Of a DNA stretch of 56,033 nt, positions 3 to 30,183 are shown one piece after another. The position numbers and the translations under genes are program-made. The DNA lies in the IMG/VR virus record IMGVR_UViG_3300031841_003747, positions 1-56,033 of that record; one strand, given 5' to 3'. Below the pieces are notes generated by a model. The model had not been told where the DNA came from and ran no database searches. It worked only from the letters and a program-made list of their open reading frames with translations. Each line of letters begins with the position of its first letter. Positions within the stretch are counted from its first letter, which is position 1. This DNA is from a virus.

Positions 3-491
3 AAGGTATATAGGACAGGCGTGTATCCTGAGTGGTGCTTCGATGCAAAGCTAATGGATATCCCCAAAGGTGTACCACCTGTGCTACATCGCATCCTTAC
101 TGAGTGTATAGAGCATGCCTCATCCAGTTACCACTTGCCACTAGAAGATGGGTCATTGGACTACCACCCCCTATTCTATTGTTGTTGGTATGGTTGGCGA
201 GAGCCATGGATGGACAAGCGACTAGAGCGTATGGTGCTAAACAATTACAACTATGCTTACACACCAGACCATGTACTCGACTCACTCAAGTCAAGGCCGG
301 GAGATCAGGGGCAAGGGGATGATCTAACATGGAAGGTGTACGAGGATCTATGGAAGTACAATGAGAATACAACAGATCAAACATGTATGCCCGAATGTCA
401 TACACTATGCGAAGCAGAGGAGATCATAAACAAATTCAAACCATTCGCACAACTAATCAAATATATAAGCCATGAGATACAGTACGTTTAA
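3..491 (+). CDS. Hypothetical protein, 5'-truncated, upstream of PRTRC-like genes
   Basis: The reading frame is open to the window edge, so the gene is probably cut off. A GTG at 21 could start a 156-residue protein, but no Shine-Dalgarno sequence can be seen before it. The protein is rich in Trp, Tyr and Cys (for example PLFYCCWYGW near residue 50 of the GTG-start form) and has no signal peptide or membrane segment. Its 3' end overlaps the next gene by 20 nt, which suggests translational coupling. In PRTRC cassettes of plasmids and integrative elements the gene before protein B is often protein A or F. I cannot confirm homology to either, and I see no JAB-type HxH motif that would indicate protein A. 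Function unknown. Confidence 0.6.
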   Translation, partial: KVYRTGVYPEWCFDAKLMDIPKGVPPVLHRILTECIEHASSSYHLPLEDGSLDYHPLFYCCWYGWREPWMDKRLERMVLNNYNYAYTPDHVLDSLKSRPGDQGQGDDLTWKVYEDLWKYNENTTDQTCMPECHTLCEAEEIINKFKPFAQLIKYISHEIQYV

Positions 492-1083
492 TGCAAAGCA
501 TTGCTTGATGGTGTACGAGGATGAGCAATCAACACTAGATCGTCCAGCCTGCCTACTCTATGACAAGCAAGATAACAAGTGGGGCAACGCAAGGACACTA
601 TCCCCAGAGGAGGTAGATACTATCTTCAAGTTTCGACAGGATCAGTTCTTCTCAAAGCCAGCGGTACTCCCTGAGTGTATGCTGTGGTACGAAGCAGATA
701 AGTGCTTGATGTGGTATCAGAACCCATGCACTAGACCAATGACGGTACGAGGAAAGAAGGTAAAGTACTCACACCCAGGCTTAGTGTTCATGGTATCTGC
801 CAACGCCATGCGTATCTGTGTGTACTCAAAGAAAGAAGCATTCCGCCCGACATTCACCACCAAGCTATATGAGAATCCATACTCCAATGTGGATACACAC
901 TATGGTCATGGCAATGTGGGTCTATGCCGTGTGCCTAAGTTCACTCAAGAGTATGCACATAAGCTAGATGCGTGGGAGGAGTGGACAGATATGTTCTACG
1001 AGAGTGGGTTCAACAAAGTACCTACACCAAGAAATAAAATAAAACAAAAAGACTTAACACTAGGAGAATGGATATGCGGATAG
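472..1083 (+). CDS. PRTRC system protein B-like (E2-like fold)
   Basis: This 203-residue protein resembles PRTRC protein B, a family predicted to have an E2 ubiquitin-conjugase-like fold. Features seen: the block RPTFTTKLYENPYSNVD around residues 124-140, matching the family's Pro/Thr/Leu-Tyr/Pro-Tyr/Asn pattern, followed by a Gly-rich GHGNVGLCRVP segment with Cys152 where the family has its conserved VCxG-type cysteine. The N-terminal half has alternating beta strands (LMVYEDE, CLMWYQN). The gene overlaps the following ThiF/E1-like gene, and this B-then-ThiF order is the usual PRTRC order. Role: presumed partner of the E1-like enzyme in an uncharacterised conjugation or sulfur/adenylate-transfer reaction. 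Biochemistry of PRTRC is not established. The family call rests on recalled motifs, not on a search. Confidence 0.75.
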   Translation: MRYSTFNAKHCLMVYEDEQSTLDRPACLLYDKQDNKWGNARTLSPEEVDTIFKFRQDQFFSKPAVLPECMLWYEADKCLMWYQNPCTRPMTVRGKKVKYSHPGLVFMVSANAMRICVYSKKEAFRPTFTTKLYENPYSNVDTHYGHGNVGLCRVPKFTQEYAHKLDAWEEWTDMFYESGFNKVPTPRNKIKQKDLTLGEWICG

Positions 1084-1739
1084 AAAATATATCAGTGTAC
1101 GGATGTGGTGGTACGGGATCACATATACTCAACGGACTTGCCCGTATAGATCATGCGTTGAAGAGCTTGAACAAGTTTACATTCCAGGTAACTGCGTATG
1201 ATCCAGATACAGTAACCGAACAGAATGTAGGCAGACAGGCATTCTACCCATGCGATGTGGGTGTCAATAAAGCCAAGGTACTATGCGAGCGTATCAATCT
1301 CTACTACCATACAAGGTGGCGAGCAGTACCAAGCAAAGCACCATCGTCAGATAAGACAGACCTATTCATTGCCTGTGTGGATACGGTCAAGTCACGGGAA
1401 GCAATCGCTAAGTCATGGCATAAGAAAGGTACATACATGATCGACTGCGGTAATGCCAAGTCATCGGGTCAGGTACTACTTGGCCAATTCAATGGCAAGC
1501 TACCCAATCTATATACCGAGAATGATGAACTAATCTACGGGGATGAACCCGAGGATGACTTCTCATGTACCGATCAGTACTACAGGCAAGACCTATTTGT
1601 TAATAACGCCGTCGCATTACAGGCTCTGCAAATCGTGTGGAGTATGGTGCGGTGGGGCAAAATAAACCATAGGGGTGTGTTCCTTGATATAGAACGAGGA
1701 GCGATGAACCCCATAAAAATAGAAGAGGATATCATATAA
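1074..1739 (+). CDS. PRTRC system ThiF family protein (E1-like adenylyltransferase)
   Basis: E1/ThiF/MoeB-like Rossmann enzyme. The glycine motif GCGGTGSH lies at the N-terminus, followed by a beta-strand Asp (YDPDTV), the QNVGRQ..F segment and the GVNKAK helix typical of the adenylation site, then an FIACVD strand. The C-terminal half matches the PRTRC branch: DDFSCTDQYYRQDLFVNN, a VFLDIERG strand, and a final NPIKI. Cys167 (numbered from the ATG at 1068) in FSCTD is the best candidate for a conserved catalytic or metal-binding cysteine. An ATG at 1068 would extend the protein by two residues, but AGGAG at 1062-1066 sits 7 nt before the ATG at 1074, so 1074 is preferred. The upstream gene is the E2-like partner. 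The activated substrate is unknown; no ubiquitin-like protein is recognisable in the window. Confidence 0.85.
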   Translation: MRIENISVYGCGGTGSHILNGLARIDHALKSLNKFTFQVTAYDPDTVTEQNVGRQAFYPCDVGVNKAKVLCERINLYYHTRWRAVPSKAPSSDKTDLFIACVDTVKSREAIAKSWHKKGTYMIDCGNAKSSGQVLLGQFNGKLPNLYTENDELIYGDEPEDDFSCTDQYYRQDLFVNNAVALQALQIVWSMVRWGKINHRGVFLDIERGAMNPIKIEEDII

Positions 1740-3834: not shown

Positions 3835-4271
3835 TAAAGGAATACTTGTTCGTGGGAGAAAAGCGAAGCAACCTAGCAATCAAGATGAATGTAACCTGGA
3901 AAGATGGTAGGCTTGCCGCCAAGCAGTTGTTTGATGCTCTTGACGCATGTGGCATACCAAGGAAGAAATGTAGTTTCCTTAATTGGTGGCCAGAATTTGA
4001 CCGTAGAACAAAAACATGGTCAGAGCAAACGCCACGAGCCACTATCCGTAACATCGACAACCGTAACAAAGAGGGCGGATGGGGATCAGGTGACATCATA
4101 CAGATTGTAGCATTGGGAAATAAGGTGCAGAAGGAGCTAAGTAAAGAAGGTATAGATTTTATACCTGTAATTCATCCTGCGGCACGCGGAACAATCAGAA
4201 AGAAAGAAAACTATGCCGAGCATATTCGGCAACAACTAATAGAAAGTAACACGAAATATAATGTTAAGTAG
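3825..4271 (+). CDS. Uracil-DNA-glycosylase-superfamily-like protein
   Basis: A 148-residue protein with features reminiscent of minimal UDG-fold proteins. An N-terminal strand is followed by VGEKRSN (in the place of the family's GExP-type first motif). Then come a helix with GRLAAKQLFDALDACGI, a strand IIQIVALGNKVQKEL (the ALG.xvq.xL strand-helix common in UDG-like folds) and IPVIHPAARG (in the place of the HPSP motif). The usual catalytic Asp/Asn after motif 1 is not obvious, so the protein could be inactive, bind a different base, or belong to another small alpha/beta family. Its place in a phage operon with a helicase and a DNA base-exchange enzyme fits a DNA-metabolism role. Overlaps both neighbours by about 10 nt. 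Confidence 0.5.
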   Translation: MPVIKEYLFVGEKRSNLAIKMNVTWKDGRLAAKQLFDALDACGIPRKKCSFLNWWPEFDRRTKTWSEQTPRATIRNIDNRNKEGGWGSGDIIQIVALGNKVQKELSKEGIDFIPVIHPAARGTIRKKENYAEHIRQQLIESNTKYNVK

Positions 4272-4443
4272 GTACTTGGTATCCTCGGACGGTCATTGCT
4301 TATGCGATGATCGTACCGAGGGTACAGTAACCTTCAGCAAACAAGATGCTGAAGATATTGTTAATCAACTAAAAGAGAAAGGAATAAACGCCCAAGTAAT
4401 TGAGGTGAGGATAAGAAAATGGCTATCTATGATTTGGAGATAA
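4261..4443 (+). CDS. Small hypothetical protein (60 aa)
   Basis: Short ORF that overlaps the preceding gene by 11 nt and the helicase gene by 25 nt. It predicts a beta-hairpin (YLVSSDGHCLCDD) followed by a helix (SKQDAEDIVNQLKEKG) and a basic strand, like a small ferredoxin-like or DNA-binding fold. The last residues lie over the helicase start and may be there only for coupling. No family recognised. A degenerate copy of the 22-bp GTAACAC element overlaps its ATG (4246-4267). Confidence 0.5.
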   Translation: MLSRYLVSSDGHCLCDDRTEGTVTFSKQDAEDIVNQLKEKGINAQVIEVRIRKWLSMIWR

Positions 4444-7073
4444 CATCGGACGGTAAGCTCCGATCGTTCCCACAAACCGCACCTGGCGATCTGCAGATGG
4501 ATCTGGAGATTGTGGCAGGTAGATCCCCCATATCACTCGTAGTATCCCTATCGGACTATCGGAGGTTGAGTAAGCTATTCAATCATCCCAAGTGTTTGAT
4601 GTCAGAGGATGCTCGCATTGCAATCGAGACAGCATTGGAAGCGGGTAAGAAGGTCGCACGACCTATTACTAAGCCTACTGATTTCGAGCTGACTGCGTAT
4701 GTCGAGGAGGTCAAGAAACTAAAATGTATAAAGGATGTACACATAGAAGGAGATGATAAGTTCTCAGGACTTCAGCTAACTAAAGGCAGAGAGTATGAGT
4801 TTGTCTCCAAGAAGATTGAGTTCGTTGAACCATTCACCAAGGAGAAGTATCTCTTCGATGAAAGCACCGAGCAGATCGCTACTCGTACACACCAAATGTC
4901 ATTCAAGGGTAATGACTATGCCTTGCAGTTTGTTGATGACCGAGGATGGACAATGAGATTCAGAGATCATCCTACCATTCATACAGATATCAATGAGGCA
5001 AAGATATGGGAGTACTTCGAGAGACCTGATGTACCTACTGTAGCTAGTGACAACATGGATAAATACAACGATGGACTAGATATACTTAGGTATATGGAGC
5101 ATTCTGCTCAGCCCAAGTTCTCGTTTTTCCCAGGTCAAATGAAGTATATTGCATCTGCATCATGCTCTGACTCTGCACTGATTGCCGCCGAGACAGGGTG
5201 TGGTAAGACATTGATTGCGATATCACTTGTCATGATGAAAGCTCCCGGTCGTGCATTGATCTGTGCCCCCAAGGGTACAGTGGCATCTAAGGACTCAAAG
5301 GTACATGCTCAATGGGTTAAGGAGTTTAGGAAGTTCGCACCCGATATTCCTGTGTACAAGCTATTCACGCCAGGTGATTATGAGAAACTAAAGAATGAGA
5401 ATGGTGGTGAACTACCCTATGGGGTTTTCCTCACCTATGACCATGCTATGTTTCGTGGTGGTATGGAGCATATACCTAACGCTTGGTTTGAGAAGAAGAA
5501 AGACGAGGCAGGCAAGGTCATTACCCCAGACCCAGAGGCTAAGTATCGTGAACACCTCGAGGAACGGAAGATAAAGGTACCACCATTGTTTGATGCCATC
5601 GGTACCCGTGACCGAAACAACTACCACTTCGGTATTGGTGAGCAACGCACTATGCCCGTACTCAATAAGGGTGCAGTTACTGGTGAGAAGGTATGTATCC
5701 GTTGTGTATCTGAGCCATGTATGGCAACAGAGATCGGACTAGAGATGTGGGACATGGTGATCTTGGACGAGGCACATGCTATATGTAACCTTGATGCACA
5801 GATGACCAAGAACTTCATCCGGTTGCAAGCTAAGTACAGATTCGCTCTGACTGCTACTCCTATACCTAATATGATCTGGAATATCTTCTCTCTGATGGGT
5901 TGGCTCAGTGTACCTCATTGGTACTTCGGTGATCGATCCAATGCCGCTTGGCCTTACAAAGTGGATGAGATGACTGGCAGAGGTGGCTTCATTGATGAGT
6001 TCGTCACCAAGGAGATCGACCATACGCAAGCAAAGATGAATCAGAAAGCTGGCAAAGGTCCCGCCGCGGTTAAGCGATCACCTAAGATCAGTCAGCAAGC
6101 TAAGCTACTCAAGCTGATTAGACCAATGGTGGCATTCATACCCAAGGATAGATGTAATCCTAATCTACCTAAGCTAAATGTACTCAAGATTAGTGTGCCG
6201 ATGTCCAAGGAACAGAGACAGAATTACAGTCACTACATGAACCCAGCCCATGTTAAGACCAAGAACAAGATGACTAGGTATGGTACTCAACTAGCATATC
6301 TGCGTGGTATTGGTAACAATCCAAAGTCATGCGGTAAGAATCGTACAGAAGGTTCATACAATCTGTTCTCCAGTACAGACTACACACCTAAGACACATGC
6401 TGCTCTTGAAAATGTATACAATATACTATCCAAGGGTGAGCAAGTACTCATTGCTGGTGCGGCTATTGACCAGCTCAACGAGATGCAACGCAGGCTATCG
6501 GAAGCTAAGATCAAGTACACGGTTATCAATGGTGACAACTCAGATAAGGCAAGTGCGGCAGAGAAGTTCAAGTCAGGTGAAGTACCTGTACTATTCATGT
6601 CTAATAAGTGTGCCCAGGCACTATCCTTTGAGCAATGCTCCAACATGATTATCATGTCCCTTGACTGGGCATTCGGTGTATTCGATCAGACGGTGGGTCG
6701 TTGCTATCGTGTTAATTCACCCAAGGATGTGAACTGCTACATCTACCTACACTCTGAGTCACTCGATGAGTTGATGTTCGACAAGCTATGCTCCAAGCAA
6801 GATGCGGCAACCATTGCCCTGCATGGCGAGAAGGTAGATAACGAGGTAATCACAGTAGATAAGCAATCCATACTTGGTGAGCATATGTTGCAGTGGCAAA
6901 GCCTCCGTGGTCAGATTGATCTATCCGAGGAGACCGAGGCTGAGTTGTTAGCTAAGTGGCCTAGTCTACTCGACAAGCTAAAGACTATCACGGCAGGTGA
7001 GGAATTAGGAATCACCAAGGAGGATCAGGATGCAGTGGCTGAGTTACTAGAGGAGATGGAAGACTATGCCTAA
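4419..7073 (+). CDS. SNF2/superfamily 2 DNA helicase (884 aa)
   Basis: ATP-dependent DNA translocase or helicase. Two RecA-like lobes are visible. Walker A is ETGCGKT at residues 258-264, a motif Ia-like strand is ALICAPKGTV, and the DEAH box is at 450-453 (VILDEAHAI). The motif III region is ALTATP, and motif VI lies near residue 760 (DQTVGRCYRVN). The Q-like segment before Walker A (FFPGQMKYI) and the FALTATP/GRCYR pattern match SNF2-like phage helicases. A long insertion (about residues 330-440) separates motifs Ia and II. The first 230 residues form an accessory domain of unknown role. Phage SNF2-like helicases usually serve replication initiation, recombination or repair. The gene overlaps the next ORF by 8 nt. 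This is the longest left-arm gene and the likely enzymatic core of the operon. Confidence 0.92.
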   Translation: MAIYDLEITSDGKLRSFPQTAPGDLQMDLEIVAGRSPISLVVSLSDYRRLSKLFNHPKCLMSEDARIAIETALEAGKKVARPITKPTDFELTAYVEEVKKLKCIKDVHIEGDDKFSGLQLTKGREYEFVSKKIEFVEPFTKEKYLFDESTEQIATRTHQMSFKGNDYALQFVDDRGWTMRFRDHPTIHTDINEAKIWEYFERPDVPTVASDNMDKYNDGLDILRYMEHSAQPKFSFFPGQMKYIASASCSDSALIAAETGCGKTLIAISLVMMKAPGRALICAPKGTVASKDSKVHAQWVKEFRKFAPDIPVYKLFTPGDYEKLKNENGGELPYGVFLTYDHAMFRGGMEHIPNAWFEKKKDEAGKVITPDPEAKYREHLEERKIKVPPLFDAIGTRDRNNYHFGIGEQRTMPVLNKGAVTGEKVCIRCVSEPCMATEIGLEMWDMVILDEAHAICNLDAQMTKNFIRLQAKYRFALTATPIPNMIWNIFSLMGWLSVPHWYFGDRSNAAWPYKVDEMTGRGGFIDEFVTKEIDHTQAKMNQKAGKGPAAVKRSPKISQQAKLLKLIRPMVAFIPKDRCNPNLPKLNVLKISVPMSKEQRQNYSHYMNPAHVKTKNKMTRYGTQLAYLRGIGNNPKSCGKNRTEGSYNLFSSTDYTPKTHAALENVYNILSKGEQVLIAGAAIDQLNEMQRRLSEAKIKYTVINGDNSDKASAAEKFKSGEVPVLFMSNKCAQALSFEQCSNMIIMSLDWAFGVFDQTVGRCYRVNSPKDVNCYIYLHSESLDELMFDKLCSKQDAATIALHGEKVDNEVITVDKQSILGEHMLQWQSLRGQIDLSEETEAELLAKWPSLLDKLKTITAGEELGITKEDQDAVAELLEEMEDYA

Positions 7074-8036: not shown

Positions 8037-8228
8037 ATGAGTGAATTATATGCATGCCCGCAATGCGGAAAGAAAGATTCTGCATGGGATGATGGACTCT
8101 GTGGAGCTTGTGAGAAAGCTCGAAGGGAGTGGGATGAAAAGATAAAACGAGAAGAACAAGAAGAGTATTGCAAGAAACATGGTGGATACTTCGATCGCGA
8201 TGGCAACTGGAGGGAGGGAGAAGAATGA
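8037..8228 (+). CDS. Zinc-ribbon protein (63 aa)
   Basis: The N-terminus has CPQCGKK, then LCGACEKA, a CxxC...CxxC treble-clef or zinc-ribbon knuckle, followed by a long charged helix (REWDEKIKREEQEEYCKKHGG). It is preceded by a near-perfect Shine-Dalgarno AAGGAGG (8023-8029), 7 nt before the ATG. The stop overlaps the ATG of the DpdA-like gene (ATGA at 8225-8228), so the two are likely coupled. A regulatory or adaptor role is plausible; the partner is unknown. Confidence 0.75.
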   Translation: MSELYACPQCGKKDSAWDDGLCGACEKARREWDEKIKREEQEEYCKKHGGYFDRDGNWREGEE

Positions 8229-9040
8229 AGGAATACTTCGTAGGATGTGAAGACCCCAAGCGGGTACACGAACTAGATGCGGCAATGATGAACGCATACT
8301 CATTAAGGAATAGAAAAGAACCACTCAAAGTAAACAGATGGATGTTGGATAGTGGTGCGTTCTCACAGATCGGACTAGGTGAACATGCACCAGGTAAATT
8401 CGTGCAGACACCAGAGGAGTATGTACGCCTTGCCGTACGCTTACAGGACTGCGGAAACCTAGCATGTATTGTCACGCAGGACTATATGTGTGAGCCGGAA
8501 GTGCTAATCGCACAACGCAAGAAAGGATTCACCGCTACTATTACCAAGCATCAGTGTTGGACGGTAGAGCGATACTTTGCGATCTTAGAGGAAGCAGAGA
8601 TACAAGGACTAAGAGTGCCCGTCATGCCTGTACTGCAAGGTGATGACCCGCATGATTACTTGAGGCATTGGCAGATGTACTGCAAGTGCAAGGAAATCGT
8701 GGGTGATTATCGTCCTTATGAGTGGATCGGTATAGGCTCTACATGCAAAAGGAATAATAATCCTGAGTCAGTTGCGGAGATACTAAAGCTACTCGATGAC
8801 CACTACGGTCCACTTACCGACTACAAGGTTCATGCGTTTGGATTAAAGCAGACAGCCCTAGGGTTTTCCGATGTGCGAGATATGTTATACTCTGCCGATT
8901 CCATGGCTCCAGATTATTCTCATAGAGTCGAGTGCAGAGAGAAAGGTATCCCAAGGACCAGACGATCACGCATGGATAATATGCTAAAGTTTCAGGAGCG
9001 TATAAGAAACCAACCCGTGCAAACTTGCTTGACATTGTGA
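8225..9040 (+). CDS. dpdA: DpdA-like 7-deazaguanine DNA transglycosylase
   Basis: Resembles phage DpdA enzymes, TGT-like (beta/alpha)8 proteins that exchange guanine for a 7-deazaguanine in DNA. Family-like motifs seen, in order: LDSGAFSQ (Asp42), TQDYMCEP (Asp86), VPVMPVLQGDDPHDYLRH, GIGSTCKRN near 169-177, and HAFGLK at 203-208. The TIM-barrel order and the DSGAFS and G.GS.C.R signatures separate it from tRNA TGT. No preQ0 synthesis genes (folE, queD, queE, queC) are visible here; they may lie outside the window, or the host may supply the base. ATG 8225 is selected (271 residues) because a purine-rich AGGGAGGGAG lies just upstream and it overlaps the previous stop; an in-frame ATG at 8168 lies inside the zinc-ribbon gene. 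Specificity for DNA is inferred. Confidence 0.82.
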   Translation: MKEYFVGCEDPKRVHELDAAMMNAYSLRNRKEPLKVNRWMLDSGAFSQIGLGEHAPGKFVQTPEEYVRLAVRLQDCGNLACIVTQDYMCEPEVLIAQRKKGFTATITKHQCWTVERYFAILEEAEIQGLRVPVMPVLQGDDPHDYLRHWQMYCKCKEIVGDYRPYEWIGIGSTCKRNNNPESVAEILKLLDDHYGPLTDYKVHAFGLKQTALGFSDVRDMLYSADSMAPDYSHRVECREKGIPRTRRSRMDNMLKFQERIRNQPVQTCLTL

Positions 9041-9069: not shown

Positions 9070-10131
9070 ATGAAATTAATTAAGTCAGATAAGACAGGTA
9101 TTTACTCCGTTCAGTACAGAACTGCATCGGGTAAAAGACGAACAACATCACTGCAAACGACTAGCAAGAAAGAGGCTACATCTATTGCAAAGGATATCGA
9201 ACAGGCTGAAGGGTTGGCTAAGAGAAACCTACTGACCAAGGAAATCCTTACCACCATGATTACGGATAGGAATATATCTTTCCAGGACTGCGTGAACGAG
9301 TGGTATAACTATTCCAAGGTCAGATCAAAGTCTGGCAATACGATCTATACTCAGTCCACATTGCTCAGTAATTTTAAAACCTCTGCAAAGATCAGTAAGC
9401 TGAGCGAGCTTGAGTCTAAGATGATATCGGACTGGGTGAACGAGAAGGGCAATATGAATGCCAACTCACGCAATCAAAGGCTTGCCGCTATTCGTTCGTT
9501 CTGTGGATATGCTGTAGCAAATTGCTACATGACCAAAGACCCATCGTATGGAATCAAGGTAGACTTATCCAAGCTAGATCATCAGCAAAAGGAAAAGAAC
9601 ATTAGGGTTCCGTTCACCAAGGAAGAGTATGATGCTATGCTCGCCTACGACCCACCCTACTTTATGAAGCAAGCGATCGTGCTTGGTTGGTGGACTGGAC
9701 TAAGGATCATAGATATCTCCAAGCTTGAGTGGGCAAGTATATCAGACACCCATCTAACAGTTTGGACAGAGAAGCAAGACAAGCGAGTTAATCTACCACT
9801 AGACAATCCACTAATCGGAGGCGGTAAGATCAGGGATGTACTTAGCGAAGTGCCTTACGAGGATAAGAAGTATTGCTTCCCTGAGTGGGCTGAGCTTGCC
9901 GATGATCCCAAGAGACGATCAAGATTTAGTGTATACTTTAAGAGATTTCTAGGGCATGTATCAGAGTTCGGTGATTGCGTAATAGAAGGGAAGAGCTTCC
10001 ATTGCTTCCGACACTCTTTTGTTACTCGTATAAAAACTGAGAGCTATGATTCGTCACTTGAAAAGATTGCGGAATGGGTGGGTCATTCTCGAACAGAGAC
10101 CACGAAGGGTTATTTGCACGATGCTTCCTAA
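9070..10131 (+). CDS. Tyrosine recombinase (left)
   Basis: Phage integrase family protein, 353 residues. The N-terminal part has an arm-binding-like region with two strand segments (YSVQYRTASGKRRTTSLQT), then a SAM-like core-binding domain (about residues 75-170). The catalytic domain carries the full tetrad: Arg212 in TGLRIID, Lys in the beta hairpin TEKQDKRVNLP, His311-x-x-Arg314 in HCFRH, His339 in VGHSR and Tyr348 in KGYLH. The enzyme should therefore be active. It is the last gene of the rightward block and converges with the HNH operon; a - strand ORF overlaps its 3' end by 110 bp. The second recombinase at 54255-55271 sits beside the attP candidate, so this one may act in excision, inversion, dimer resolution or another integration event. 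The 22-bp element directly before its ATG suggests lysogeny-linked control. Confidence 0.93.
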   Translation: MKLIKSDKTGIYSVQYRTASGKRRTTSLQTTSKKEATSIAKDIEQAEGLAKRNLLTKEILTTMITDRNISFQDCVNEWYNYSKVRSKSGNTIYTQSTLLSNFKTSAKISKLSELESKMISDWVNEKGNMNANSRNQRLAAIRSFCGYAVANCYMTKDPSYGIKVDLSKLDHQQKEKNIRVPFTKEEYDAMLAYDPPYFMKQAIVLGWWTGLRIIDISKLEWASISDTHLTVWTEKQDKRVNLPLDNPLIGGGKIRDVLSEVPYEDKKYCFPEWAELADDPKRRSRFSVYFKRFLGHVSEFGDCVIEGKSFHCFRHSFVTRIKTESYDSSLEKIAEWVGHSRTETTKGYLHDAS

Positions 10132-10273: not shown

Positions 10274-10466
10274 CGAGATCAATCTCTGAAATAAATTCAA
10301 CCTCGTCCTCCTCTTCTTCGTATAATTCATCTATAGCTTCTGATACGCAGTTCAGGATTTCGTTACTCTCTAGGTCGGACTCAGCTTCCCACCTCTTTAA
10401 AAAAGATATGAACTCATTGGTGCATTTCTTCTTAGCATCATCGTCCTGTTTATCGAACACGCTCAT
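10257..10466 (-). CDS. Small acidic protein (69 aa)
   Basis: Very acidic C-terminal half (DELYEEEEDEVEF then DLDGEED). The start overlaps the HNH gene stop by 4 nt (ATGA), implying translational coupling. Helical N-terminal part with CTNEFISFLKRWEAESD. Acidic partners of HNH or other DNA-binding proteins are common in phages, but no family is identified. Confidence 0.6.
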   Translation of the reverse strand: MSVFDKQDDDAKKKCTNEFISFLKRWEAESDLESNEILNCVSEAIDELYEEEEDEVEFISEIDLDGEED

Positions 10467-10693
10467 TTTCTGCTACGATTTCGACTCTTACTTACGCATG
10501 ATAAGTTAGAACGCTTGTTATTACGAGGGTTGCCATCTTTATGATGCACATCCTTGCCCTTGCACCCCTTTAGCTTTCTGCGTGCCTTATTCCGAGATGA
10601 TCTATTTTTCCTTTGCTCGGGTTTACCCTGGTATTTTCTCTGCCTTTTACTCCTTGGTTTGGCGTTAGGGTCTCTGTATCCGGGTTTAGGCAT
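10463..10693 (-). CDS. Small HNH endonuclease-like protein (76 aa)
   Basis: Compact basic protein ending in an HNH-type beta-beta-alpha metal motif: DVHHKDGNPRNNKRSNL, where His-His, Asn and the second Asn match the phage HNH pattern (HHxDGNxxNN...NL). The N-terminal half is Lys/Arg-rich and should bind DNA. Small HNH proteins of tailed phages often lie near the packaging genes and assist terminase; here it stands alone, far from terminase, so homing or DNA-processing roles are equally open. ATG 10693 overlaps the stop of the preceding 41-residue ORF by 8 nt. Catalytic residues appear complete. Confidence 0.8.
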   Translation of the reverse strand: MPKPGYRDPNAKPRSKRQRKYQGKPEQRKNRSSRNKARRKLKGCKGKDVHHKDGNPRNNKRSNLSCVSKSRNRSRK

Positions 10694-10848: not shown

Positions 10849-11757
10849 CTATTTTGCACGAATTGCCTCAATAATAGGCTCACACACATCAATTTTATCC
10901 TTACTGGTTTTACGCATACTCATCCTAAGCCACACAGCACCAGTAGGTTTGGGTGGTCCTCCCCTCTCAATATGCCATCCACCATAGCCATCAACATATT
11001 CTTCTTTGTAGGACGGAACCTTCAAGTGTAGTTGTTCATCATGGTATACCTTCCCTTTATTAGTTAATCTAATACGAGGGATAGGGAACTGCCATTCATT
11101 GTGAGTATGACCAGTAGCTACAATGTGAGCATCGGGTAGATAAACCGCTTGCCTACTTGTTTGGATAGTTCCCTTAGTCACGGGAGCGTCCCCTCCGTAT
11201 CCATGGTGGTACCACAAATTAACCGACCTTGCTTCTCCAAATAGTAGTAATTGAAACTTTACCCAACCACTAAAACCACCTACATGAATCTTTGTGTTAT
11301 GCCTATCGTTAAGCATACTAACTAATCGCTCAGTTAAGTTTGTCTCGTGCCTCTTAGATATATTTGTTTCATGATTGCCTGGTGCCATGATTGCAAACTG
11401 TTCGGCGTAAGGTCCATAGAAGTCTGCCGCAGTCTTTACTAATGAGTCAAGGTAGTCTCCCTTCTGATGCTCTGGCTTTACATCTCGCTTATCTGATCTT
11501 GGATCATACTTGCCTTGCATAGCACAGAATAGATCACCTCCATCTATTATTATAGCGTTTCTTTCCTTTGCCTGTCGAAGATGTCTAAGCTCCATGACAT
11601 TATCAGACTTCGGATTGTCGTGGTGTCTATCAAAACTGAGTAGTACCCAAAAGGAATCTTTTTCTTTTGTAGACTTAAGTTGGTGTTTTATAAAATGTAC
11701 ATTACGACTCTTCTCTATGATTTCTGTCGTACCGGGGGTTAGTCTTTTGATTGGCAT
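10849..11757 (-). CDS. Calcineurin-like metallophosphoesterase
   Basis: A 302-residue protein with the full metallophosphoesterase series: FDRHHD at residues 42-47 (metal site 1; the first motif is usually DxH), GGDLF at 73-77, GNHE at 127-130, HHGYGG at 184-189 and GHTHN at 216-220. These place it in the calcineurin-like phosphoesterase superfamily (nucleotidases, DNA nucleases, cAMP or Ap4A hydrolases). The exact substrate cannot be read from motifs. Its start overlaps the stop of the 3751-residue virion protein gene by one base (TAATG), so it ends the large late operon. It could remodel nucleotides or be a packaged nuclease; both are inferences. Confidence 0.88.
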   Translation of the reverse strand: MPIKRLTPGTTEIIEKSRNVHFIKHQLKSTKEKDSFWVLLSFDRHHDNPKSDNVMELRHLRQAKERNAIIIDGGDLFCAMQGKYDPRSDKRDVKPEHQKGDYLDSLVKTAADFYGPYAEQFAIMAPGNHETNISKRHETNLTERLVSMLNDRHNTKIHVGGFSGWVKFQLLLFGEARSVNLWYHHGYGGDAPVTKGTIQTSRQAVYLPDAHIVATGHTHNEWQFPIPRIRLTNKGKVYHDEQLHLKVPSYKEEYVDGYGGWHIERGGPPKPTGAVWLRMSMRKTSKDKIDVCEPIIEAIRAK

Positions 11758-14700
11758 TATTGCATCATCATTTGTAAAGCGAGTAGTCTCGCGTCCTCCT
11801 GTCTCATCTGTGACCGCATAGAAGGTTTACGATATCCACCGCCAATTAAGTTGAGGTAGTGTTCATGGGAGGCTTCAGCCTGTTGTACGCGCATGCGATC
11901 TTCTTCACTTAATGCACTCAGGATCATTTCCCACTCCCTTTCGGAAAGTTTTGTTTTAGTTACTCCAGTCTTTAGGCTCCTGCGCTTGTAACTTTCTATT
12001 ACGCTACGCTCGGGGTCTTCTCTTCCATCCACTTTAGCGGCTTCCATTGCTTGCTGGTACTGCTCTAAGAACCCTTGACTATCACCCGCATACGCCGCTC
12101 TTGCCATTTGCCTGGTGTTTACACTTACTCCGGTGGGTCTTCCTCCTCCCTTGTATGGAGGTCTAAGCTCTAGTCCCATCATGAATGCTGTCTTCTTGAT
12201 GGTGTTCTTGAGTCCAATGTAATCTGCTACCCTACGCTCCTCGGAGTCGATATCTAATTGTGCAGTAGCTAAGTCCATCATTTGTATGACAGAATTACCA
12301 CCCACTCCGTATGCGATCGGACGACCTACTGTCTCCCAATCCCACTCACCTTGGTGTATCCATGTGCCAAAAGCATCATAAATATTTTTAATCATGGAGA
12401 ACGCAAAGATTCTAGTATCCAAGCTAAGCTCTCGGGACGCACCATACGGGTCACCTTTAGAGAATATACCATTGATTAGCTCAGTACCCATACCAAATGG
12501 TACACCCGCTTTAGCCAGTCGTGAGGTTACTGAGTAGATAGTAAAGTTAGGATCGGATGCGGCAATAGGTATACCTACGATCGGAAGAGCAGCCCATGGT
12601 GTGATTGGTGGCAAGTTATTTGGTTTCTCCAGCATCTCATCATCATACCAATCAATCATCATACCAAAGGATAATGACAATGGCATATACACAGCAGATA
12701 GTAAGCCGATGTATTTAAGTAAAGCTATGTATGTGGTGGTAGGATCATCGGAGTCACGGATCACTGCGGTAAGGTCACGACCCATCTTACCAAGAGGCCA
12801 ACCAAGGAAGGTATTAAAATATCTTAGGTAGTCATTGGAGTACAACCAGGCAGGTTTTGCATTAAACCCATCCCCTGATATCTGATCCATTGCGATCGTG
12901 TTGATCAGTATCGCAGTTCTTTGCTCAATCGGGAAAGCATTTTTGTCTGCCTTCTTACGATCTATGAAATCAAATGCTAAACGGGTAACGGATGGTAAGC
13001 CGTGAGATATCAGAAGTTCATTCATTCTTCTGTACCCGTCTGCTTCACCAATGATCCACTCTCCAGTCTTGTCCCCCATGCCTAGGTCTTCTGCGGTGAA
13101 CTCGCCATCATACTCGGTAATACCTCTACGCTCTATTTCTTCAGTAACTTGCAGTACCAAGTCGTTGTATGAGTGGATAGCACCTACTCCGATCGAGTGG
13201 TTGACCACATTATTTATATAAGGAAAGATGCCTTTGACTGCGGTAAGGAAATCGAATGGGGCACGAGTACCATCTACATTCTTTCTCTTATTAAACATCA
13301 TGGCACGCTTTACCATCCGTAGATACTTCTTGGCATTCGGTCCATCCATGTCACCACCTGACCCCAACTGCCCTGTAACATACTCCTTAAACGAGAGATC
13401 CATTTCATCTAGTCTAAAGTGAGTATTGTTTAAATACTGGGCATAGCGTCCTGTCTTCTCCATCTCCATACCCATAGCCTCAGCGATACCACCGAATGTC
13501 TGGTTTACGAAGTTACCTAACGCAGTAACCGTCCCCTTCCCTGCCATTTTGTTTAACCCACGAAAAGCCATCGGGAACTCAAACAAACCAAGATTCTGCC
13601 AGAAGGAAGACTTCGGATTGTTCAGTACGGATAATGCTTGAACCCCAAGTAACTCAAGTAGAAGGTTCGCATCCTTGTAAGGACCCGCCGCATTGTCCTT
13701 GCCGTAGTATCTAGCAAGGTGTTCCATTGCTTTGTTTAATTCACCAAGTGCTACTGCTTTGGCATACAATTGATTCCATGCTTTCTCGGCATTAGGCTCT
13801 CCCTCCCGTCTTAGTATGCGGTAAGCTTCTTTCTTTTCTTCCCTGGTATAACTTCTTTGCGGGGAATCATGTTTACCATTGGTTGCTTGAGCCATGATCC
13901 TATTGAACTTGCCCCGTGCTTTCTCGAAACTATCCCGCCCCTCAGTAAATGCAGAACCTGCCTTATCCCCATTCCTACCAAATGTTTTAGTAGCTACTTG
14001 TAAAGCCAAGCGGATACTGGAAGTAACCTCATCATACATGGTATAATAGAAGAACTCCTTCGGCAGACGACTCTCCATCATACGAGCATCCAAACTCTGT
14101 GGAGTATTTCTCATGAGGTGCGAGTCCTTCAGTCCTTGGTGTACTCTATCCCGAAGTAAGCGGTCTGCTACTTTCTTTAACTCCATGTACTTACCATCCA
14201 TCTGTCTAAGGAAGTATGCTTTCCATTGCAGTCTGGACTCTAGTGTTTGACTCTCTGATACCCGATCAAAGATTATGTCAGTCATCTTAAAGATATCCCC
14301 ACCACTCTGACGATATGCTTCCCTTACAAATGAATTACCCATGTATGCGTTGTGACCATCGGAGTCTGCGGGTCCACGGAATACAGATTGTCTTACATCT
14401 GAGTGGAGGAATGGTCTCACAAACCTACCAACTATTTTCTCAGGGAAGATCCGCTTATAAATCTTCTCCATAGTCTCTAAGTCTTTTACACTACCCGCTT
14501 CATTTAGTAGCTCACTTGCCGCTTCCCCACGCCAGCCCACTGACTGCATGAGTTCATTGGTATCTATTACCAAACCATCATTGATGGATCGTGGCATGGT
14601 AGCGTATCCGATATCAATCGGGCGACGATAGAAGTCTACCATCTCTCCATCTATATAAGACTGTACCTTAAACTCATCATCCTTGATACGATTACCAAGC

Positions 14701-17700
14701 TCCATGTTTATCTTCTTCTCGAAGTCACGAGCGGCCAATGCCTTGGCAATCATGTTCTTTACTAGCTTCCTAGCATTAGTATCTAGGAGGGTACGATCCG
14801 GTACATTGGCATACTTGCGGAGGTTTGACCATAGCTGTGAAAATGCTTCCTCTTCATTGCCTGCATACTCGGGATGGTTATCAAACCACCACCAAATGTC
14901 CTGGTATAATCCTGAGTAAAACTCTCTACCACCTAGCTTGAGTGCCCCCATTACTTGCTGTGCGGAAGCATTGAATTGTAGTGCTAGGGATTGAGACTTT
15001 GAGGAGTAGTCACGGAACAAAGCTACTGTCTCGGATGACATCTGCGAGAGCTTCATGCCCTCGTATCCGAGCTTGGAAAACCGCTCGGTCAATCCTTGTA
15101 GTCCGCTCAACCAACTAGCTCTTTGTACATGGAAGAACTCATCTGCTATTGGTTCATGTAGTGCCATGAGTGCTTGCTCACGCATGAGGTCAAACCATGG
15201 CTCCTCCCTGTATAACTTCTGCATCTCAGGGTCTCTTGTAAATCGTAGTGTTTCCTTATTGACCTTAACAAAGTTCGCACGATCCACGATCTTACCATTC
15301 CTGTACTGCACCTTAAAGTTCTTACCCCGTACCCACTCACCACTCTTATCATCCCAACGCATGGTCAGTAGCTCAGCACCATCATGTATAGATACTGGCA
15401 TAAGTTCACCAAGAGATGCTCGGAGACGATCACTACGCACCTTCAAGGATAGGTCGATCTTATTATATATCTCCTGTTCCTTCTTTAATTTCTCTAGGTT
15501 CGCACGCTCAATGATCTCTCCTGCTTTCAGTCTAGCAAAGTATCTAAGTGGAGTACCCTCTACTCCGCTCTTAATAATGATCTTATCTAATTGTTTCTGA
15601 TCTGTTGCTTTGGCGATTTGATGTGCCACATCCATCATGGCTTGCTGGCTCTCTCCGATCCTGCCCTTGCTCAATCTAAACAATGCCATCTGACCAGTAC
15701 TCTCCCGTACTGCTCTCATGATTGCTAGTGCTTTGATGGTAGGTATGCCCATTGCCTTGATTGAATCGAGTAGCTCTCCCTTCTTTTGGGTCTCTGCTAC
15801 ACCAGGTAAATCAATCAGTTGCTCCATGACTGACTCTACCTCACGCTTACTAATTTCTTGTATCGTGCGGATATCTGATTGGGTAAGATCAGCGTTGGGT
15901 AAACTCGTCACATATTCCTTTAAGGTATCAAATGATACCGCATTGGCTTTGGATAGTATGGACTCTACTTGCTTCTCTGCGGGCGGAAATCTTCTAGCTA
16001 ATAGATCTTCATAGAGATGTAAGCTATCTGTGATTGCCTTACTTGCTAAGTCCTCCGCTATGACTCGCTCTTGTAGCTCAGTCCTTGCCTTGGCTCTTAC
16101 TGCCTCAAGATTGGCTACTGCCTTTCTTCTTCCCCAATTAAATGCAATACGATTCAGCCCAGCATCATCCAGTCTTACACCATCAGAGGAATCCATGAAT
16201 GGTTTGAGGTCTCTATCTAGTCTCTTCTTGATCGTGGATATGTTTGAAGTACCGGGTGATCCGTAAAGATCCATGAAGTCTTCAAGCTCTATACCTACAT
16301 CCTTGGCTACCTGTTGGTATACCTTTACTAGCTCGGTTACTAGATCATTGAATCCCGCGGCGTTAGCTTCCATCATTACCCGCATATTCTCATCGGGATT
16401 AGCGTTCTCTAGTCCGTCTTGGAATTGTTCTTGGTACTGAGAGTCAAGTGCTGATGCTTGGATATCCCTTGAGTTGAGGTAGTCTGCTTCAGCTTGCAAG
16501 CTCTCCAACTGATTAGCTAAGTCCTCAGTATTCCTTAAATTGAATCTTTCCTTGTACTTGGTTGCCTCGGGGTGGCGGTCGTACCTTACATCCCCTGCCA
16601 AAATCTGTCCAATTATAGCAATCTCACTCTCAAGGTCATTAAGGGATTGGCTCCACCCTTGGTCGATAAATGGATCGAATAAGAATACTTCTCCGTTTTG
16701 TATTATTGCATTACGGGAGGTTAAATCTCTTACCTGTATATTCCCACGAAGATAAGTATTGTATGGTTCTCCTTCAGATATTCCTTGGATTCCTTGGTTA
16801 CGGAATCCCTTCTTGAGCATCTCGGTATTTATAAGACCAAGCGGAGTGCCTGCTTTTGAGTCTGCCTTTAATGCTTTCTGACTGACTACTGGCATAAGCA
16901 TACGCTTGCCTGAGTCACTCGCTTCTCTTTCTACGAACCCATCTAAGTTTAATTTAACTTCGGGGAAAAATTCATTATGCAAGAGCAACCTTTCAAGGTA
17001 CTCAGATAGTTCGGTATCACCTCTGTATGCTTTTACATACTCTTGTCTATTCTCATCGAAGTAAACATCATGCTCTCCACTAAATACTTGCCCCCAATCT
17101 AGCTCTTCATTGATCTCGCTTTCGTCAATAAGTTGGCTATTTCCTCTCGCAAGTTCCTTAACCTTACCCTTTCGCTCGGTGTCAATTTCTGGGGTGGTGG
17201 TGGCTTTCGATTGAATAATTGGACTGCCATCTCCCTGCCCTCCTCTAAGGACATTGATCGCTTGGATGATGTTGTATTCGGTTGTTCCTGGTTTTGATCT
17301 TTTGCTGATGTCATTTAATACCTCTCTTTGAAAATAAGGTCCTTCAGACCTTAAACCTTCTTGAAACTGTGGGTCAAGCGCAGAAGCTTGGATGTCCTTA
17401 AATTCCAATTCTTTTAGTTTTGGATCAAAGTCTACAGTGCTTAAATTAGTTCCTTGCAGTCCTACTTCTTTTAAGTCTATGCCTTCCTCCTTAACATACT
17501 TATCCATACGCTTTTTAATTTTTTCATTAGCGTTGTTTAAGTAGAATTGTAAACTATCTGCACTGTACTCCCCTCCAGTGAAATCTTCTTTTGCTATGGC
17601 ATCCTCAAGGCGTTTCTCTAAATCCCGTATATTCATATCTTCCCCGAATACCGAAACAGGAAAGTCCATTTTAATTATATCACGCTCTTGTTTAAGTCCT

Positions 17701-20700
17701 AGTACAGTGCTGTATTTTTGTTTCTCTCCGTAGTAGAAACGATCCAAGTCTTGAAACTGTGGGTCAAGCGCAGAAGCTTGAATATTCTCCTTGGGGATCC
17801 CCACCCTATTTCCATCCACATCTATTGCATACTCCAATGGCTGGACAGCATTGACGAGTTGGTTCAACTGATCGGTGGCGTAGGATAGTGCGTTGTCGTT
17901 GGTTACAGTGGCAAAGTTTAGTTTAGCAAGTATGCGGTAGATGAAGTCTAGTACTGTGTTTAGTACTCCCTTCCTTCTCATGCTCTTGGGTAGACTTGTC
18001 TTACTCAGGAAGTCTCTAAAGTATGGGTCACTTGCAAATACTGAAAAGAACTCGTCTACTGATGTCAGCCCATAGGATAGCTTAAGATCGCCAGATGCTT
18101 GCTCTCGCAGATAAGGGAGCATGGTTTCTGTCATGTTCGTCCATAGATCACCCGCGAGTTGCTTGTGCTGTAAAATGTTTTCGTCCGCAATAAACTCAGT
18201 ATTACCTTTATAGATTGCTTCCCCGAAGTCTAGGATCGGATTGAGTACCGGGTGTAGTAGCTCATGCACAATCGTACCCGCCAGTATATCATCTGCTTTG
18301 TGTAGTTCGTTATCCTGAAGGAACGCATCAGATATAATAATCTTCTTCTTGGATGGTATATGTACTGCCGCAGTAAGGATTCCATTCACCCGTGCGTATG
18401 GTCGGTAGTCCTCCCACTTAGCAAACTCTATGGTATAGTTATCAAGTAGCTTATTACCATTTAGCATCCGTGCCACATTTCCAATGAATGGTACATTTGT
18501 CCTGGTAATTATCTGATTGATTGCAGTCTGTGCCGTGAATGGTAAACCCTCCATTGGGGCAAACCTCTTGAATGCCGCCTGTGCTTCCTCTACTGAATTA
18601 GGATTCTCTTCAGCTACTGGGTTTTGTTTTGGTGCTAGATATCTGCGTGGGTCACGGCGTGCCTCCTCATATGAGTGGTCGATTGCTTCCTCGCTTGTGG
18701 TAGCGGTCTGCCTGATCTCCCTGCGATTCGTAGTAGGATCAATGATGGTAACAGTACTTGAGTTTGGATTCAACCTGGCATGATCCACATCTGGCTTATC
18801 TGCTTCATACCCTTCCTTGAGTTGTAACCCCTGTGCGTCCGTAGTATCTGCTACCCGTATTCTCCCAGGTGAATCAAATAGATCAAGTAGCTCCTCTTCC
18901 GAGAATGCTCCACCTATATCCATCACGAAGTCCCGCTGACTTGGAGGATCAAATATATCTAGTATCTCTTCAATAGCATCCTGCTTGAAGGTGTCTCGAT
19001 TGACTACGGGGCTTTGACCAAAATCATTTAATCTATTCCAACTATCGGTATTAAGACTACGATCGTAATCCTTGAGTATACCCCTAAGTTTCTCTCTTGC
19101 TAATTGCTTTCGGGACTTAGGCTTCTCTACCTCTTCTTCTTGGACAGGCTCTTGAGGTTTTGGCTCAGGTGCGGGTTGTAGGTCGCCAGACCTTACTGCT
19201 TTCTCACTTCCTCTCTCTTGCCTCTCGTACTCAAAACTTTCTATTGCTTCTGTTAGCTGAGGTCCCCTAGCCTTTATAATCCGCTTTATAAGCCCACGCA
19301 TGGAATTGAGTTTAGCGGGAACATCTATGGGGCGGTCGATAGGATCGAGCATGCCATCCTTTCGGGTGGCGTATGGTTTTATTGCTTTGTCATTTACCAA
19401 CCTTGTATAAAACTCCTGAAGGAAACTATCGAAGGAGCTAGGCATACCAACATATAAAGACAGTAACCCTTCCTTTATTCCTCCAACTGGGCCACCCACC
19501 ATATCCCTGAAGGTATCAAGGAACATTTCACCGAGCTTGGTTTGCTCTAGTAGTCCAAAGAATTGCGGAATGGTTAGGGCATCAAAGTTCTTCTTCGCAC
19601 CCTTGGCTGACCCAGCTCCTTCAGCTAGTGCCTTGCTTTGTTCATTGGTTGCAGTAAATCCATCCTTACCATCCTCTGCGCCATCTACTCCCTGTCTTAC
19701 TGTTCCTGTACGGGCATCAGATATCTTTTTGTTTTTTAACTCGGCACGATCTGCTTCAATAGCTCTCTTCTTTTCCTCTATCTTTTTTTGTATCTCTTTT
19801 CGTAAAGCTATTGTCTGCTCAATCTGTGCTTTAATCCTGGCTCTTACTTGCTCTTTAGTTTCGCCTCCCTCAAGCGCCATACCTTGGTCATCACTTTCCT
19901 CATCCAGCTCCTTGAGCATTGCTTGCAAGTCCTCAAGGCTAGCCGTGGAAGCGTCTAGTTGTGCCTGTAAGTCCTCTAGCTCTCGATCCTTCTCAGCTAC
20001 TTTCGATTGGGTCTCTATATCTGATACTGTTTGAGTCTGCTCATCTTGGGCACGCACTGCCGCCTCTGCGATCTTTGGGTCGGACTCAAATGCTTCAAGG
20101 GAAGTATAAAAAACATCAACATCTCTACCTACGCCTCCGGTATTCCCTGTTGAGTTTACCTTGCCAGTTAATTCCCACCCCTGTTCTTCTTTTAACTTAT
20201 CTAGTCTAATATACCTACTGCTTGCAGAACCTCCTCGGGTTGCATCGTACACTAGCACTATCTTGTTTTTTATGTATGCGGATGTTATGCGGATCTCGTT
20301 ATCTTTCTTAAAGATAAGTAGTGCCTTGGTTCTCGACCTCTGATCAATTCCTACCGACGCAGACTTATTAGATCTATGTAGCTCCCCGTCACTTATCAGG
20401 TCATCGTAATCTACTTGCTCTAAAAATATTTGCCCAGGTGTTTCACCAAAAGAATCAAAGACAGAAGGATTGTATTCTTCCTGTACTGCCCCCTCGGTCT
20501 TGCCTCCTACTTGAACAGTATTGATAACCACATGGTCGGGTAGTTGTATGGTCTGCGGTGTAGCACCCTTATCACTTTTCCTTGGCGGCTTGCTTACTAT
20601 GCCCGCTTGCTTGATTTCCTCAAAGGTGATCTGTATGCCACCAAAATTAAACAACTCACGCTCCGCATCACGCTCCGCAATAAATGTTTCATCTCCGATC

Positions 20701-28104: not shown

Positions 28105-30183
28105 TTACAATGCCGAGATGATGAATGAGTGGAGCTGTTCGTATCTCAATGAATATTCGTCGTAAGCCTCAAAGGTTACATCGTCAGCAATTCCAGTAAC
28201 TGGTCGCTTACCACCTCCGGAATAATTTTCATCCGAAGGATCAGGTGCTGGACCATAAGTCTTCTCAAGGGATTCATACAACTGTTCATCAAGAACGGCG
28301 TGCGCTGTCCTTTGAGTAAGCCCTGTGTCTACCCCATTAACAATTACTTTATAGTGGGTGTCCTTACAAAGCACTGCATAGTCAAAGCCATTAAGTCCTT
28401 CTGCTGTAAATGCTTCCTCTACTTCTTGGGCGATCCACCCAATATGTACGCGCGCTTCTTCACCTTTTTTCTTAACAGAGGATTTAAGACGGTACTTCTT
28501 TACCATACCCTTAAGAGCAACAGCTACACGCTTTTCAGCATCAGAAAGAGCTTCAATATCTTGTTTTAAATTTCTGTCAGAAGAAACAGTTGGACTATTC
28601 TGGATAAACAGGTCTCTCCACTGCTCACCAGTGTTACCCAAGTCCATATTACTGCCTTGTGGAGCTAGACTGCGCTTCATGCTGGAATTACCTAATCCTT
28701 CTCCATAAATATAAAGACCACCAATATTTCCAACACTACTTCCGCCAGTTGTTACTAATCCATTCGATGTGGAAGAGTTGTACCAAAGATTGGGATCTTC
28801 AACATGACAGATATAGTTCACTGAGAACCTACCGACCGATGCTTGTATCTGTATATTTCCTTGGTGATCTATTACATTACCACGCGGATAGTCATCATCT
28901 ACACCGTAGGTTGTACCACTGTATGTACCTACATTTCTTTTAACTTCTGCTTCAGCATTGAAACCATCAACATTTTGCTCCAACTGTAATACCGTACCTC
29001 CTGCGGCACCACTTCCGATCGTACCAGCAGAACCTTCATTCTTAATGAACATTCTATGGTATGTGGCGTCTTCCCTAGCTCTAAAGTTCCAGGATAGACC
29101 TAAATCCATGTAAAAACATGCATTGTTATTACCAAGAATCAATCGATCTGTAACATCAGATGTATCAAGTGGTCCCAAAATAATAGCACCAGCCCAATTC
29201 ATTTGCCCCCATATATTGTGAGTAACATCAGATGCCCATCCAAATTTACCGTCGGTTACATTTGTGTCACCATCTAGTGCTTTATGCGGGTAAATTTGAA
29301 GTATGCTCGAATATTTTGTATAGTCAGCACTAATTGAATCCAGACCAAACTTACCATTACTACCAACGATATTGAAGTTTCTGTATGCTTGCTCTTGGTC
29401 ATGAATGAACCATGCCCCAGTGTTTGGGTCTTGGTGTTCTGCGGCAGTATATGTTGTACCTGTAGGGAACTTATCTCGGAGTGCTATGAGATTAACACCG
29501 CCTTCTAAAACAAGACCCGCAAGACCACCATTAGTATTGTCCTGCCCACCGGAACCAGTGCCAGTAGCTGTCTGTGTTTCAATTAAAAGTGCCGCATCAC
29601 CATAAGAACTTGCTCCCGTCTTAGTTATGTTTAAGCCTGCGTATGCATCACTATCCTCTATCCTGAGGGTACCATCTACATCCTGACTTAAATTAGAGAG
29701 AGAGGACCCTCCGCCAGCCGGACCTTGTAGTCCTTGCGTTCCTTGGAGACCTTGATTTCCTGTCCCTGTAAGGCCCTGCCTTCCCTGAGCACCTTGTGTG
29801 CCTGTACCTGTTGTTCCTTGACTTCCGGTAGTGCCTTGCCTTCCTTGTAATCCCTGAGTTCCTTGCGTGCCTGTACCTGTGAGACCCTGTGTTCCTTGGT
29901 TACCCGTAGTTCCCTGGCTTCCTGTAGTTCCCTGACTTCCTGTGGTTCCCTGACTTCCGGTGGTTCCCTGAGGGCCTTGGATTCCTTGGGTGCCCTGCAC
30001 ATCACCATTAGTTATTGCATTTACATCACCGATGGTAGTGTTGAGCTTTAATCTCAAATTTTCAAAATTACTATCTACATCATTATGAGACAAAGGGTTG
30101 CCACTATTGTGTGCGCGTAATTTTACATTTTGACTCGTAGGGTTAAAATCCCCACTAACATTAAGGTCAGATATATTTGGCAT
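28105..30183 (-). CDS. Tail fibre with collagen-like repeats and S74 chaperone domain
   Basis: A 692-residue receptor-binding protein candidate. Residues ~60-155 are Gly-X-Y collagen-like triplets ([17 protein letters not shown] repeated). The middle resembles a trimeric fibre shaft, and the C-terminus (about 565-692) is an intramolecular chaperone of the peptidase S74/endosialidase type: [13 protein letters not shown]... and [13 protein letters not shown]. In that family Ser of the SD dyad begins the released chaperone domain, which trimerises the fibre and is then self-cleaved. The ATG is 3 nt after site c of the 22-bp element and has no Shine-Dalgarno sequence. Starts a separate transcription unit with its own promoter. 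Confidence 0.85.
29690..30000 (-). repeat. Collagen-like GXY repeat region
   Basis: Degenerate tandem triplets encode Gly-X-Y within the fibre gene, with some near-identical 9-bp units in the coding strand for GTT GSQ. Slippage here could change fibre length. Confidence 0.7.

Follow-up and report, generated by a model that had tools for sequence, protein, structure and literature searches.

Does the pair of E2-like and E1-like genes in the early region of this temperate phage belong to a conjugation pathway of the PRTRC type, and what would such a pathway modify? PRTRC cassettes are known mainly from plasmids. A prediction published in 2006 held them to encode a ubiquitin-like pathway of bacteria, and our search of the open literature found no paper testing PRTRC function or describing PRTRC on a phage. 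We analyzed the 56,033-base linear IMG/VR virus record IMGVR_UViG_3300031841_003747 over its full length (hereafter the window). The locus is a PRTRC-derived variant and not a full PRTRC system, since A and ParB were looked for and were not found in this sequence. Our preferred reading, to which we assign a probability of about 0.62, is a phage-borne PRTRC variant without a JAB peptidase, in which a ubiquitin-like protein C with a pre-exposed end is relayed from ThiF to B as a tag with no dedicated removing enzyme, its likeliest targets being proteins acting on the DNA of the element itself. The features of the locus are collected in Table 1.

Table 1. Features of the PRTRC-derived locus and its flank (positions in the window).
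Feature	Position	Strand	Basis or remark
F-position protein, C-terminal part only	3..491	+	Matches proteins of ~290-330 aa between C and B in relatives
E2-like protein (PRTRC_B / Prok-E2_D)	472..1083	+	Family profiles; homologue in 85/85 loci
Asp141-x-His143 codons of B, clade-specific motif (D-T-H in the window)	892..900	+	Asp 11/11, His 10/11 in two of three clade alignments
Cys152 codon of B	925..927	+	Invariant in clade alignment; off the canonical Cys column
E1-like adenylating enzyme (PRTRC_ThiF)	1068..1739	+	TIGR03736 above cut-off; profile aligns best with SUMO E1 subunit UBA2
Cys167 codon of ThiF, candidate thioester cysteine	1566..1568	+	Invariant within clade
Small ORF directly 5' of the SNF2 helicase gene	4261..4443	+	Kept in nearest relatives L006, L007 and L008
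SNF2-type helicase	4419..7073	+	First large gene after the cassette throughout the clade; an associated gene outside the PRTRC set
Tyrosine integrase, downstream of the cassette	9070..10131	+	Phage context

The ThiF protein scored 201.4 bits against TIGR03736 PRTRC_ThiF (E 1.4e-59; cut-off 144.75) and, on this score, belongs to that family. The nucleotide-binding Gly motif and the Asn, Arg, Lys and Asp adenylation residues of E1-like proteins are all present; the motif and N53, R56, K68 and D105 are invariant in alignments A1 and A3. These four residues line up with N56, R59, K72 and D117 of UBA2, which we take to be catalytic, together with a Cys at the position of ThiF Cys167. The B and ThiF ORFs are both open, lie on the same strand with a 16-nt overlap and form one operon. 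B matched TIGR03737 PRTRC_B at 68.7 bits (E 4.4e-19), under the cut-off of 131.45, and Pfam Prok-E2_D (PF14460) at 68.3 bits, exceeding the cut-off of 25. It is a divergent PRTRC_B/Prok-E2_D protein, the E2 label being taken from these family profiles. The PRTRC-type pair proposed in the first-pass annotation was thus recovered.

When IMG/VR was searched with a ThiF alignment, 190 related contigs were found, of which 80 were kept for analysis; single-sequence searches with the window ThiF, B and the gene after ThiF (g1739) gave no match. B accompanied ThiF in all 85 loci checked, either immediately preceding it or separated from it by a single gene (A), except in the unverified record L005, where it was 5.6 kb off. 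The window and ten relatives with 44-67% ThiF identity (L006-L015) form a clade of 11 rows (SH-aLRT 95) and have the order cassette, SNF2 helicase, integrase in common. The helicase is present in 11/11 members and the integrase in 10, the contig of L012 ending before the integrase position. No close relative of the clade was found in GTDB genome contigs. A phrog_2 terminase was detected on the same contig in 21 of the 42 records tested (two matches being weak, E about 3e-4), which indicates that several different phages carry PRTRC. The isolate Burkholderia gladioli phage BgVeeders33 encodes E, C, B, A, ThiF and a candidate F, which are unrecognised in its annotation. Phage carriage of PRTRC is therefore widespread rather than unique, and the pair that the first-pass annotation had proposed to seek in phage databases recurs there.

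Profile searches detected genes for TerL, a portal protein, two tyrosine recombinases, an SNF2 helicase and a DpdA-like protein in the window. The TerL, portal, DpdA-like, SNF2 and integrase genes identify the source as a tailed temperate phage, and the earlier placement of the pair in the early region of such a phage, with SNF2 helicase and DpdA-like genes, was correct. Since the longest relatives reach ~80 kb, roughly one third of this phage genome may be missing. The two recombinase (integrase) genes lie at opposite contig ends (9070-10131 and 54255-55271). The DpdA-like gene of the early operon (8168-9040; PF23859, 92 bits; PHROG annotation queuine tRNA-ribosyltransferase) is retained by most clade members at varying positions. 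The gene at 1739-2428, g1739, is restricted to the nearer relatives; it follows ThiF in the window and L007, whereas L009 and L010 have it within the cassette itself, flanked by E and C. A small basic ORF at 10463-10693 has the motif HHKDGNPRNN, looks HNH-endonuclease-like by eye and is conserved in the clade at 67-94% identity. The ORF at 11757-23012 encodes 3,751 aa with short peptide repeats IQASALDxQ(F/Y)Q between apparent domains (DNA repeat family D3; 16429-16468, 17359-17398 and 17749-17788), possibly sites at which a polyprotein is processed, or linkers within it. Degenerate 45-nt tandem repeats at 29740-29895, collagen-like in look, probably sit in a tail-fibre gene.

The first-pass annotation had recognised no other PRTRC members and had suggested a reduced system. 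The former is true of the window, but the first bases of the contig already lie within the F-position gene, so that E, C and most of F could not be recognised there, and the apparent reduction is largely an artefact of the contig end. The cassette of the clade relatives runs E-C-F-B-ThiF on one strand: C and the F-position gene lie just upstream in all ten, and E in most. The ubiquitin-like C gene is 1.6-2.0 kb upstream of ThiF in 10/10 of these loci, a position that falls off the contig in the window, as does that of E. Against TIGR03738, C of L010 scored above the cut-off and C of L008 and L013 below; all three passed the Prok_Ub cut-off. E of L010 passed the cut-offs of both TIGR03741 and Pfam PRTRC_E. 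We infer that E and C are present in this very phage. The partial ORF matched the F-position protein of L006 (E 4.9e-31) and was connected by iteration to L105/L106, whose protein matches TIGR03742 PRTRC_F weakly (E 0.0067). In profile-profile comparison its probability of matching PRTRC_F was 21.6% when the linking sequences were left out; a match of 98.8% was discarded as partly circular, because it had members common to both sides. A fold search with F matched nothing significantly. By its position and this chain of weak matches, the ORF is a candidate PRTRC_F.

What is missing from the reduced system is the JAB peptidase A. No PRTRC_A (TIGR03735) or Prok-JAB match above the cut-off was found in any of 29 A-less virus records (the window, 10 clade members and 18 further), and the search recovered 4/4 positive controls. 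Neither profile matched in the window, itself a fragment. A weak Prok-JAB match in L006 was rejected as protein A because it proved to be a RadC gene; RadC-type JAB proteins were also rejected as a general stand-in for A, being above the cut-off in only 4/33 records, of which L006 and L015 belong to the clade, and nowhere in the window. A RadC-like JAB gene adjoins the cassette in two clade members (L006, 13635-14084, PF04002 128 bits; L015, 5467-5961, 101 bits). A weak Ct_A match of g7223 (E 0.017) was rejected since its sequence has no JAB metal-binding motif. A-less cassettes are found on plasmids as well (Alteromonas, Pseudomonas P105, pQBR103, Aeromonas), which indicates that the loss of A is neither phage-specific nor a phage invention.

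The absence of A was compared with the C-terminal end of C, which is typically GTKG. In A-less loci with C, the protein stopped exactly at the conserved terminal residue in 49/49 cases; this residue is Gly, except for Ala in L053, and C of the ten clade relatives ends precisely at the terminal Gly. In A-carrying loci, C extended 1 to 100 variable residues beyond the conserved end in 38/45. Among plasmids, C stopped exactly in three A-less cassettes, A occurred with a short tail in Burkholderiales, and A occurred with no tail in sphingomonads and Methylomonas. A tail without A was not found in any virus locus or plasmid compared. Many Burkholderia-type prophage cassettes (L016-L063) have a long variable extension after GTKG, in some with an HVCPLLDEE-type helical end, which is possibly a fused small cassette protein. 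As judged from the sequences, the pattern fits A as a peptidase that matures the ubiquitin-like C. The association gave a Fisher p of 1.6e-19 with kinship ignored; on the tree, A has to change only 5 times and the tail 4 times, and the independent pairs number 1 to 4. Since the loci are related and the independent events few, we do not claim the link to be significant.

Another departure from the plasmid type lies in B. The first-pass annotation had pointed to a Cys152 motif; this Cys is invariant within the clade but lies outside the canonical column. All 108 B proteins outside the clade keep the family Cys column. Of three alignments, two place a Cys there in 0/11 clade proteins and one in 1/11. 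A His downstream of the Cys is present in 90/108 non-clade proteins versus 0/11 in the clade. The window B has Asn at the family column and Cys152 four columns further downstream. Throughout the clade, an invariant Cys shifted by up to 4 residues lies behind an Asp, nearly always in a D-x-H motif. In alignment terms, the shift could also be described as residues inserted ahead of the Cys and others deleted behind it. On these comparisons, the rearranged active site is the most unusual part of the locus and marks this phage clade only; it lends support to the earlier word "rewired". As modelled by AlphaFold (pLDDT 83.6), B has a beta-meander followed by the Cys loop and a helix, with low confidence in the loop (pLDDT <50 at 142-149). 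Comparison with known E2-fold domains gave weak matches (VIA; Tsg101 UEV, Z 2.6; Atg10, Z 2.4). Foldseek against the PDB returned zero significant matches for the model, three viral models with uninformative names matched at E < 1e-3, and PDB sequence searches with B and with C gave no match or chance-level matches only. The loss of the canonical Cys column and the downstream His would also be expected if the clade B were an RWD/UEV-like adaptor devoid of catalysis, leaving the transfer of C to ThiF alone, and the UEV domains among the weak fold matches are dead E2s. All members nevertheless retain an invariant Cys a few residues from the canonical place, behind the nearly invariant D-x-H, and we consider a dead B improbable.

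These differences were set against known systems. The plasmid cassette has the order ParB-E-C-(D)-F-B-A-ThiF. The cassettes of Cupriavidus taiwanensis plasmid I and C. necator pHG1 share ThiF and B with the window; with its relatives they also share C, E and F-position genes, likewise ordered and all encoded on one strand, whereas the phage clade lacks A and a cassette-linked ParB, its C is not extended past the Gly, and its B has a displaced Cys without the downstream His. The A-less plasmid cassettes (pQBR103, Pseudomonas P105, Aeromonas caviae, Alteromonas) resemble the clade in that B is directly followed by ThiF, and C of pQBR103, Pseudomonas P105 and Aeromonas caviae ends exactly at the Gly; they differ in an adjoining ParB-family gene, the canonical E2 Cys column and a plasmid backbone. 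BgVeeders33 and related prophages (L016-L063) likewise have PRTRC close to an integrase in a tailed-phage genome, but they have A, a C tail after GTKG in nearly all, a ThiF only ~38% identical, and belong to another phage group. The description of operon type 6d (Iyer et al. 2006, PMC1779556) includes a JAB gene and, downstream of the Cys of the E2, a His that is absolutely conserved. It has in common with our locus a ubiquitin-like protein with a C-terminal Gly, an E1-like protein, an E2-like protein without the classical upstream His and a fast-evolving helical protein, although the window has neither the JAB gene nor the downstream His.

The E1-E2-ubiquitin-like logic is also common to defence systems such as CBASS Cap2/Cap3 and 6A-MBL conjugation. 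The cassette might therefore be a prophage-borne anti-phage defence like CBASS Cap2 or Bil that tags a defence enzyme or a competitor's structural protein. ThiF gave weak PADLOC E1-E2 matches and a weak NCBIfam 6A-MBL match, and the cassette is near an integrase in two unrelated temperate-phage groups. However, the PADLOC matches span only the nucleotide-binding part of ThiF, and B, C, F and g1739 match no PADLOC model. In contrast to CBASS and 6A-MBL, the phage E1 and E2 are separate proteins and the relatives have their own ubiquitin-like protein; neither a cyclase, metallo-beta-lactamase or Cap3 gene nor a nucleotidyltransferase or other effector gene was found adjoining the cassette. A defence role is thus rather unlikely.

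The likeliest targets would be proteins handling the element's own DNA, because ParB lies beside the plasmid cassettes and an SNF2 helicase beside every clade cassette. With a PRTRC ParB profile built here, no ParB was found with the cassette in the window or within 10 kb at the clade loci. Outside the clade the cassette neighbours are diverse, which makes this a weak reading of the target; no Pfam family was represented by over 3 of the 100 genes examined when recurrent genes downstream of the cassette were sought across phages. The same machinery could instead act on host proteins in the course of infection or in the lysogenic state, for takeover or counter-defence. Tagging host proteins is a plausible phage strategy, the operon lies in the phage early region, and the absence of a JAB to reverse it would accord with one-way modification. 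Yet plasmids, for which there is no takeover phase, carry the cassette no less commonly (a ThiF relative occurs in 371 plasmid records), and its neighbours in the window are DNA genes; host targeting is therefore unlikely. Still more doubtful is that C is a sulfur carrier and not a protein tag, ThiF making a C thiocarboxylate that feeds sulfur to nucleotide or nucleic-acid modification. The ThiF/MoeB ancestry and the DpdA-like base-modification gene of this phage would suit such a role, and PAPS-reductase-like genes lie within 6 kb of ThiF in 4/12 additional plasmids (L117, L120, L121, L122) and virus contig L068. Such genes are, however, absent from the window and the clade loci, no rhodanese or desulfurase was found in the cassette, and an E2-like gene, which sulfur carriers do not need, accompanies ThiF throughout.

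In the preferred reading of a JAB-less conjugation pathway, C would leave the ribosome with a free C-terminal Gly and need no maturing peptidase. ThiF would adenylate this Gly and then bind C through a thioester bond, with Cys167 the probable site. C would then be handed to Cys152 of the E2-like B and attached to a lysine of a target protein. With A missing, C would stay attached for good unless some other peptidase took it off. Catalysis, the thioester relay and the target class are what we infer from these comparisons. A more specific version, which we put forward tentatively and hold to be somewhat improbable, is that this temperate-phage clade evolved a ubiquitin-like pathway of its own, with a pre-matured C, no peptidase, an E2 Cys relocated behind D-x-H and a one-way tag on a phage or host DNA-handling protein.

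These results indicate that an uncharacterised bacterial protein-tagging system travels in phages and can be studied there in a small, tractable setting. The covariation between the JAB gene and the C tail predicts the role of protein A, and the shifted active site of the clade B offers a natural experiment on the ways in which an E2-like enzyme can be remodelled.
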